Source: an uncultured Veillonellaceae bacterium | Lineage (GTDB): Bacteria; Bacillota; Negativicutes; Selenomonadales; Selenomonadaceae | NCBI GenBank assembly: GCA_900314825.1 | Contig: OMWS01000009.1 | Coordinates: 1-64,000, forward strand | Direction of reading: 5' to 3' | Length of the DNA: 64,000 nucleotides | Shown: positions 58,642 to 64,000 of the stretch, one piece after another | Numbering within the stretch: position 1 is the stretch's first letter | Layout of the letters: the number at the start of each line of letters is the position of its first letter | Position numbers and translations under genes: made by a program | The notes under the pieces: model-generated | What the model was told of the DNA's origin: nothing | Databases searched by the model: none | What the model saw: the letters and a program-made list of their open reading frames with translations, nothing else

Positions 58642-58670
58642 ATATTAGCACAAGTGCCCCCCCCTGGCAA
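58642..58670 (-). promoter_or_regulatory. poly-G spacer promoter (candidate phase-variable promoter)
   Basis: On the minus strand TTGCCA (complement of 58665-58670), then GGGGGGGG (complement of 58657-58664), CACTTGTGC, and TAATAT (complement of 58642-58647) with an extended TG. The spacer is exactly 17 bp with eight G. The start point would be near 58635, about 20 bp before the ATG. Confidence 0.65.
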
Positions 58671-61052: not shown

Positions 61053-61105
61053 GGTTGTGTCCTCCTCTATAGCATTAACATCATAACCGGTTTTTGTACT
61101 TACGC

Positions 61106-61254
61106 CTCCCCCTTTGGGGGAGGTGCCGAGCGAATGCGAGGCGGAGAGGGTAGCGCATAAACTATATTCATAACCCCATCGAAAGGATAAAGAATCGACT
61201 TACGTCGCTACCCTCTCCGACCCCTTCGGGGCCACCTCCCCCAGAGGGGGAGGC
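61106..61254. repeat. modular hairpin repeat, copy R12 (short subtype)
   Basis: Between glyA and rpiB. GCCTCCCC (61106) to GGGGAGGC (61254). Left module GCCGAGCGAATGCGAGGC, right module CCGACCCCTTCGGGGCC; cores GGAGAGGGTAGCG and CGCTACCCTCTCC pair. Same subtype as R5. Confidence 0.83.
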
Positions 61255-61268
61255 ATATATTGCGTGGC

Positions 61269-61831: not shown

Positions 61832-61957
61832 GAACGCACGGTTAACGCACGATTTAACACACGCGTGCGTTAAATCGATGATTTTCAACACACGCGAGCG
61901 TATTTTAACGCATGCGTGCGTTAAAATACGATAAATCTAATGCACGCGTGCGTTGAA
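61832..61957. promoter_or_regulatory. array of eight TTAACGCAC-like boxes
   Basis: Rightward boxes: GAACGCAC (61832), GTTAACGCAC (61841), TTTAACACAC (61853), TTCAACACAC (61884), TTTAACGCAT (61904). Leftward boxes: GTGCGTTAAA (61865), GTGCGTTAAA (61916), GTGCGTTGAA (61948). Three pairs form palindromes, the best with perfect 14-bp arms (61899-61912 and 61917-61930). The array ends 2 bp before the -35 of the glycosyltransferase promoter and lies in the divergent gap with rpiB. Confidence 0.7.
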
Positions 61958-61959
61958 CC

Positions 61960-61989
61960 TTGCCCTCTCACTAAGAACTGCGTTAGAAT
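61960..61989 (+). promoter_or_regulatory. promoter of the glycosyltransferase
   Basis: TTGCCC (61960-61965), 18-bp spacer, TAGAAT (61984-61989), 23 bp before the ATG. Confidence 0.6.
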
Positions 61990-62012
61990 AGATGCATGAG
62001 GTGATTGCTTTT

Positions 62013-63301
62013 ATGGAAATCTACGCGAACACAACGATCTACATAGCCGGCATCCCGCGCGCCGTCTCGGGCGGGCCGGAGCTCCTGCACCAGCTTTGCT
62101 CCGAGCTTTTGCGGCGCGGGCTCGATGCGCGGCTCTGGTATCCGACAGACGATCCGACGCCCGAGCCGACGGCGTACCGCAAATACCACGTTCCCTATAC
62201 CACCAAAATCCGTCTTCGCCCCGAAAACATCGTCATCTTTCCCGAAACGATGACGGAGCTCTATTCTCAAGTCGGCAGCATCCGCAAAATTCTCTGGTGG
62301 CTGAGCGTTGACAATTACCTCGGCCATCTGAAATATCTTCTCACCGAACAAATGCACCACTTCCTTGGCCATCCACTTCATGAGGTGCTCTATCTGTTCG
62401 CTCCAGATATGCAGATGGAACATTGGGTGCAGTCCGAGTATGCGCGCCGCTATGTGCGGATGAATGGCGTGCCAGACGCTCAAGTGCATTTCGTCGGCGA
62501 TTATCTGCAATCCGGCACGCATCTAGGACTTTCGGGGGGGGGGGACTTAGAACTTCCAGGCAAAACATCATCGCCTACAATCCGCGAAAAGGCATGGAGT
62601 TCACGAAAGAGCTCATGGCGGCGGCGCCCGACCTCGCGTGGACGCCCATTGAAGACATGACGGCGGCCGAAGTGCATGACCTCCTGAGCCGTGCCAAAGT
62701 CTACATCGACTTCGGCAACCACCCGGGACAAGACCGCATCCCGCGCGAAGCGGCGGCCGCCGGCTGCTGCGTCATCACAGGGCGGCGCGGCGCCGCGGCG
62801 AACGACATCGACATCCCGATCCCCGCATCGTACAAATTTCTCGACGATCCGCAAGCGATTCCCTCCATCCTCGCCTGCATCCGCGCCTGTCTTGTGGACT
62901 ACGAAGGGCATATAGATGATTTCGCCGGCTACCGTGCGATGATCGCCGAACAAAAAGCGAAATTCCGCCAGGACATCACCGCCGCGCTGCCTGTCCGCTA
63001 CGACGTGCCAAAGCGCCAGCACGTCATCCTGCGCGAGGGGCCGCACGTCCGCGAGATTCTGCCCGCGCTCGTCGCTCAACCATGCGTCGACCTCATCGGC
63101 ATCTGGCTCGACAGAACCACCCCCACCACCGTCCATTTCAACGGCCAAACGCGCCCCGGCATGACGCTCGAGGACATCACGTTCCTCGACCAGGAAGGCC
63201 GCCTCGATGCGGTCCTCCTCGAACCCAGCGCAGAAAAAGAGGCCGATGGCCTCAAAGCCGCAGGCCTCCAAAACGCCGCCATCCGCTGGCTTCGCTGGTA
63301 A
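62013..63301 (+). pseudogene. glycosyltransferase, frameshifted at a run of 11 G (candidate phase-variable gene, off state)
   Basis: Starts at ATG 62013 after GAGGTG. The first part reads MEIYANTTIYIAGIPRAVSG, PENIVIFPETMTELYSQVGS and ILWWLSVDNYLGHL, like a GT-B/GT4-type N-terminal half. At 62534-62544 eleven G put it in a frame that stops at 62660. The C-terminal half continues in another frame: IIAYNPRKGMEFTKELMAAA, IDFGNHPGQDRIPREAAAAG, CCVITGRRGAAAND, to 63301. Twelve or nine G would restore one frame of about 430 codons with no other defect, so it looks switchable rather than decayed. The acceptor sugar is unknown. Confidence 0.75.
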
Positions 63302-63363: not shown

Positions 63364-64000
63364 TTACAGCGTCATCCGCAATTCCGGCACGTCGCCCGTA
63401 TCTTCCACCTGCCGATGGACATCTTCGACGGTCGGATGTTTCGTGTCGATGGCTTCGGCTTCTTCCACGTCCGTGCGTTCCGGTGGAGCGCTCTCTCTTG
63501 CAGCTTCTCTTGCGGTTTCTTTTTCCGCTTTCGCCTTCTCGGCAGCTGCTTGTTCCGCTTTCGCCTTCTCGGCAGCTGCTTGTTCCGCTTTTGCCTTCTC
63601 GGCCGCTGCCTCTTTCGAGGTCTTCCACGGCGTGTCGAGTTTTTCCTGCGCGGCGCGGTCTTCGTCGGTCACGACATGGAGGCCGCGGGTGTAGGTGAGC
63701 GTGACGGTGCGCGGGTCGCAGCCGTCCGTGTCGCTGTAGGTGAGGGCGACGGTCAGTGTGTCGTCCGCGAGCGACGTAACGACATAGCTGCGGTGGATCG
63801 TGCGCGCGTGCGTGTCGTGATTCTTGTAGCGGTCGGCCTCGTCGTAGCGGAACAGCCACGGCGCGATCTGGTCTTCGAGATCCGTCTTCGCCGCCGGGCG
63901 GTTTTCGTAGCTGCGGACGGTGATGGTCTCATTGGCCGGTGTGAACTGCCATGCGCCGCCTGCGTCCTGCGCACCTGTGACCGTCGCCGTCCAGTCGTCC
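63364..64000 (-). CDS. hypothetical protein with (AAAEKAKAEQ) repeats, partial
   Basis: The frame is open to the window edge, so the 5' end is missing; about 211 residues are visible. The upstream part reads DWTATVTGAQDAGGAWQFTP, ANETITVRSYENRPAAKTDL and TVTLTYTRGLHVVTDEDRAA, and looks like a secreted or lipoprotein beta domain. A highly charged Ala/Glu/Lys coiled coil follows, with three tandem 10-residue units (EKAKAEQAAA) coded by 30-bp DNA repeats (about 63520-63610). The end is VEDVHRQVEDTGDVPELRMTL. The family is not recognised. Confidence 0.6.
   Translation of the reverse strand, partial: DDWTATVTGAQDAGGAWQFTPANETITVRSYENRPAAKTDLEDQIAPWLFRYDEADRYKNHDTHARTIHRSYVVTSLADDTLTVALTYSDTDGCDPRTVTLTYTRGLHVVTDEDRAAQEKLDTPWKTSKEAAAEKAKAEQAAAEKAKAEQAAAEKAKAEKETAREAARESAPPERTDVEEAEAIDTKHPTVEDVHRQVEDTGDVPELRMTL

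Follow-up and report, generated by a model that had tools for sequence, protein, structure and literature searches.

An 11-G tract divides a predicted GT-B glycosyltransferase gene into two frames in a rumen Selenomonas and is a probable phase-variation locus in the off state

The window analyzed here is a 64,000-nucleotide stretch of contig C68, part of the 3.36-Mb, 137-contig draft genome of a rumen Selenomonas. A gene in this window is divided by a run of 11 G that is the longest G run in the genome. The upstream frame starts at an ATG at 61992 or 62013, crosses the tract and terminates at 62658-62660, and the downstream frame leaves the tract and stays open up to a stop whose last base is 63301. 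The two halves share one frame only when the length of the run is a multiple of 3, and adding or removing one G changes the reading frame of a gene that has no other defect and whose homologs are single ORFs. A preliminary description of this DNA had reported an 11-G run joining two glycosyltransferase halves that differ only in frame, with one G more or two G fewer restoring a common frame. The exact G count and both open frames were confirmed in the sequence, and the arithmetic is correct. The features of the locus are as follows.

61853-61957, no strand assigned: array of four 22-nt palindromic repeats of the TTTAACrCAyGCGTGCGTTAAA type, directly upstream of the GT-B gene
61960-61989, plus strand: weak promoter-like match TTGCCC-18-TAGAAT ahead of the GT-B gene, scoring 9/12; two such sites in the scan against a chance mean of 1.1
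62013-62531, plus strand: N-terminal half of the GT-B gene, an open frame with ATG 62013 and alternative ATG 61992, homologous to the intact L067 and L068 proteins
62534-62544, plus strand: 11-G tract, the proposed switch
62545-62660, plus strand: out-of-frame tail of the off state with the premature stop; ORF 61992-62660, 222 aa
62546-63301, plus strand: C-terminal half of the GT-B gene, an open frame in the other phase that includes the stop, homologous to intact relatives

The GT-B gene stands alone. Upstream on the opposite strand are rpiB, identified by a match to Pfam LacAB_rpiB, and a gene that we take from its sequence to be glyA, and downstream is an unrelated minus-strand ORF. A MITE-like element with inverted ends (cctcccccttt.. 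/ ..cccccagagggggagg) lies between glyA and rpiB at 61100-61258, and two further long G runs of this genome (L019 and L027) lie in elements resembling it. At 63364-63999 on the minus strand, an ORF with tandem AAAEKAKAEQ-type repeats runs off the end of the window. The palindromic array has no other occurrence in the genome at up to 3 mismatches and is not present at the orthologous loci; it is a possible operator array.

Composition does not account for the length of the tract. G/C runs of at least 9 number 13 in the genome: nine have length 9, three have length 10 and one has length 11. An order-2 Markov model of 422 kb of the genome predicts 29 runs of 6 and 4.75 runs of 7, close to the 24 and 5 that are seen, and 1.0 run of 8, where runs of 8, 9, 10 and 11 are seen 4, 7, 2 and 1 times; this sample is enriched for run-bearing contigs, and the fair comparison is 13 runs of 9 or more per 3.36 Mb against about 2 by extrapolation. 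A simulation of 1.7 Mb under the same order of model gave zero runs of 9 or more. The 11-G tract is longer than composition predicts, and the genome spectrum lies above the order-2 Markov expectation from 8 upwards.

Neither half of the gene, nor an intact homolog, is matched by any Pfam or NCBIfam family. The glycosyltransferase label of the preliminary description thus finds no support in these family collections, and its support comes from the fold of the intact homolog. An AlphaFold model of this protein (L067, encoded in genome G002; 20-row alignment) has a pLDDT of 84 and a pTM of 0.85. The best PDB match in Foldseek is 8xsg, a glucosyltransferase of Actinobacillus minor (E = 1.5e-10, TM = 0.69 on the target), which is also first in a profile search of PDB sequences (E = 7e-4). 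Further GT-B glycosyltransferases among the Foldseek matches include MshA, BshA, WsaF and WaaG. The predicted fold is shared with these enzymes, whereas identity is about 14% and no Pfam or NCBIfam family matches. By modeled fold, the gene product is a GT-B glycosyltransferase with no named family assigned, and its activity is predicted. The tract position corresponds to residues 179-183 of the L067 model, in a disordered linker between two Rossmann domains. This is one of two L067 segments with pLDDT <50, and the tract falls at the lowest-confidence linker. Extra glycines in this interdomain linker should be harmless.

The named relatives are the rumen Selenomonas MAGs RUG12578, RUG102, RUG371 and SUG490 and Selenomonas bovis DSM 23594. 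The nearest ortholog (in G001), 74% identical, carries 8 G at this site and, like the present copy, is out of frame. The flank ggactttc precedes the G run in both, and there is no second lesion in either copy. In G003, 6 G (atgggggg) occupy the same linker and are out of frame there, and all three G-run copies (11, 8 and 6 G) are off in the same direction. Genome G002 has two copies: the one on C160 (L067) is intact and has no G run, and the one on C90 has lost about 116 nt spanning the linker. The G006 copy has a 1-nt deletion in the N-terminal half. Homologs in rumen Selenomonadaceae, Lachnospiraceae and other phyla are without a G run and are mostly open through the linker, the few exceptions being at contig ends or of low similarity. 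No second strain of the species was found among the genome contigs searched.

The long G tract is probably ancestral and common to this species and that of G001, as judged from the shared site and flank. Loss of the GT-B gene is also common in the genus, because the G003, G006 and G002:C90 copies are broken. In the present species and that of G001, the gene is disabled at a long G run that both share and is otherwise undamaged. The preliminary description had suggested 9 or 12 G as lengths to look for in relatives and had given further inactivating changes in all of them as a refutation of its reading. The comparison at this locus is of 11 G with 8 G in the 74% identical ortholog, and such changes are not found in all relatives: the G002:C160 copy is intact and the G001 copy is free of a second lesion.

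Both halves of the gene are under constraint. The comparison with G001 gives an omega (dN/dS) of 0.17 for the N-terminal half and 0.21 for the C-terminal half, values that are rough owing to saturation (dS about 1.0-1.5). In a simulation of neutral decay at 0.5 substitutions per site, the C-terminal half stayed stop-free in only 0.4% of runs and acquired a mean of ~6 stops. Purifying selection acts on both halves, and therefore the gene did not die long ago. A stop-free C-terminal half is improbable under neutrality since the split from G001, and therefore the half was translated for most of that time. Separate translation of the C-terminal half from an internal start was considered and rejected; the start is not conserved (ATG in this genome, CTC in G001). 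The substitution pattern indicates that the gene is kept by selection although it is off in the sampled genome; both this copy and that of G001 are now off.

Long G tracts recur across the genus, whose seven genomes together hold 78 G/C runs that reach a length of at least 9. An automatic codon-usage score for intragenic tracts was too noisy, and long flanking ORFs were used in its place. Of 24 intragenic tracts of at least 9 G from the genus and family, which were chosen by eye for long ORFs on both sides, that is by ORF length and not by phase, 8 are in frame and 8 + 8 fall in the two out-of-frame classes. This split is as random phases predict. Tract-bearing genes encode GT2 glycosyltransferases, FkbM, TylF and other methyltransferases, radical SAM proteins, adhesin-like proteins, TonB receptors and a type III mod-like DNA methylase; in-frame tracts in a protein kinase and a PhzF-like gene may be incidental and not plausible switches. 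L106 (G002:C60 near 28637) is the type III mod-like methylase (Pfam N6_N4_Mtase), with an intragenic G9 that is out of frame, and is a candidate phasevarion in a rumen Selenomonas.

Tract length differs between nearly identical sister loci. L100 (G002) and L125 (G003), from sister species, are 99.1% identical over 2372 bp, and the single gap is the tract, with 10 G (off) in the former and 11 G (on) in the latter. Other near-identical pairs have tracts of 10 and 9 (L122/L154), 9 and 11 (L120/L156) and 9 and 10 (L128/L146). Near-identity across species may reflect recent transfer or MAG binning, and the length difference stands either way.

The flanks of the tracts have a bias of their own. In family tracts of at least 9 G, TTCG9 is far above the reversed control (17 vs 0 in G061), and TC precedes 23 of 72 long tracts in the genus compared with 7-14% of G3-G5 runs. 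The 3' flank is genome-specific: TGA/TTGA in G132, TAT/ATAAT in G103 and CAGTTTT in G061, with 14-36 tracts per genome listed or counted in these three. A common insertion element at the tracts was rejected, the flanks having only the TC/TTC bias and no extended shared sequence beyond a promoter class and a palindromic repeat class.

The promoter class consists of a promoter-like block that recurs in many copies, ATGTCTTGC-Gn-(a)ca..TGTG.TA, with the G tract as its spacer. Blocks with G9 to G11 are found at L101, L120, L128, L141, L146, L151 and L156 and also in genomes of genus g38 such as G110, and their tract lengths differ between copies that are 97-98% identical. A site of the same class as the ATGTCTTGC-Gn blocks is present in the window.

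58642-58670, minus strand: promoter-like TTGCCA-G8-CACTTGTGC-TAATAT with a 17-nt spacer holding G8, upstream of an EptA-like gene

The site resembles a consensus promoter and, read from 58670 to 58642, ends 28 nt before the ATG (58614) of the EptA-like phosphoethanolamine transferase gene (ORF 58614-56866). A change in tract length would alter the promoter spacing at this G8 site.

The 11-G run is very probably a slipped-strand contingency (phase-variation) locus caught in the off state, because the tract, the frame break, the fold, the constraint, the random phases and the length differences of sister tracts all point that way. Slipped-strand mispairing during replication would add or remove single G's in the run. 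Run lengths divisible by three would place both Rossmann domains in frame and yield an enzyme of ~430 residues with a short poly-Gly linker, and other lengths, 11 included, would truncate the protein about 37 codons past the tract. On this reading the GT-B gene is off in the cell or consensus that was sampled. A surface glycan is the presumed acceptor of the sugar that the enzyme transfers, and switching would diversify the cell surface as a protection against phage, protozoa or host factors. Slippage of the 11-G run in living cells, the glycan that is modified and the benefit under selection are all three inferred.

The main rival is a pseudogene, in which the genus is losing the gene, this copy happened to break at the G run and the off state is permanent. 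Three disabled in-genus copies, in G006 (1-nt deletion), G002:C90 (deletion) and G003 (6-G run), are as expected for a dispensable gene. A pseudogene is nonetheless unlikely, although a recent loss could still fit: this copy and that of G001 have no second lesion, dN/dS is about 0.2 in both halves, the stop-free C-terminal half is improbable after long neutrality, and the long G run is common to both species. The contingency locus in its off state, which the preliminary description had preferred to a dead gene, is the best reading in light of the 8-G ortholog with its shared flank, the constrained halves, the lack of a second lesion, the random-phase tracts and the near-identical on/off pair.

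An error of run length, the alternative raised in the preliminary description, would mean that most cells carry an in-frame run, that the gene is simply on and that the assembly or consensus has miscounted by one base. Homopolymers are error-prone, the genome is a 137-contig draft and MAG assemblies may carry such errors, but the same situation occurs independently in G001 with only 8 G and many other tracts are in random phases, which makes an error quite improbable; an error would still leave a long, unstable in-frame tract. Programmed recoding, by ribosomal -1 frameshifting or transcriptional slippage on the run, would give full-length enzyme from the 11-G gene. It would fit the constraint on both halves and the shared direction of the three off copies, yet the 24 tracts have no fixed direction, near-identical genes differ in tract length and phase, and the intact homolog L067 has no G run, so that recoding is very improbable.

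The wider set of tracts likely constitutes a multi-locus poly-G phasome in rumen Selenomonadaceae, which are non-pathogenic Negativicutes, comprising coding switches in genes of the glycan, adhesin-like, TonB-receptor and type III mod-like kinds together with poly-G promoter spacers. If so, a large SSR contingency system exists outside pathogens, and a phase-variable DNA methyltransferase could drive a phasevarion in a commensal. It would also follow that single draft genomes mis-annotate switchable genes as pseudogenes. Taken with its sister tracts, the locus suggests that ordinary rumen bacteria gamble on their surface sugars with the same device, a question directly testable in cultured Selenomonas. 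A literature search, with most subscription journals outside its coverage, returned no phase-variation report for Negativicutes, Selenomonas or Selenomonadaceae and incidental papers at most. The switch device is well known; the lineage is unexpected, with no earlier report found.

The LOS glycosyltransferase genes lgtA, lgtC and lgtD of Neisseria have intragenic poly-G tracts and are phase-variable. Both there and here, poly-G lies inside a glycosyltransferase frame that is restored at every third length, whereas the organism is a different one, the protein sequence is unrelated and we infer switching here from sequence. A change of promoter spacing by tract length is likewise a known mechanism in Neisseria. 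In porA and opc, a G tract lies between the -35-like and -10-like boxes, as it does at 58642-58670 and at L101, L128, L141, L146 and L156, where the putative promoters are recognized by sequence resemblance. The Neisseria phasome has been described (PMC5953494). Campylobacter jejuni NCTC11168 has 29 poly-G/poly-C loci with tracts of 7 or more (PMC4965091). Both genomes have many G tracts in surface-modification genes in the G8-G11 range; the C. jejuni genome is AT-rich and its G tracts stand out more, whereas GC is 58% here and counts need a composition correction. Helicobacter canadensis has homopolymeric tracts in 29 coding regions, with both promoter and coding tracts, and length variation at the read level for all 29 (PMC2823697). 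Variation was seen in reads there, whereas the tracts here are known from assemblies. Promoter and coding tracts occur within one genome in both organisms, with some tracts lying deep in the gene.
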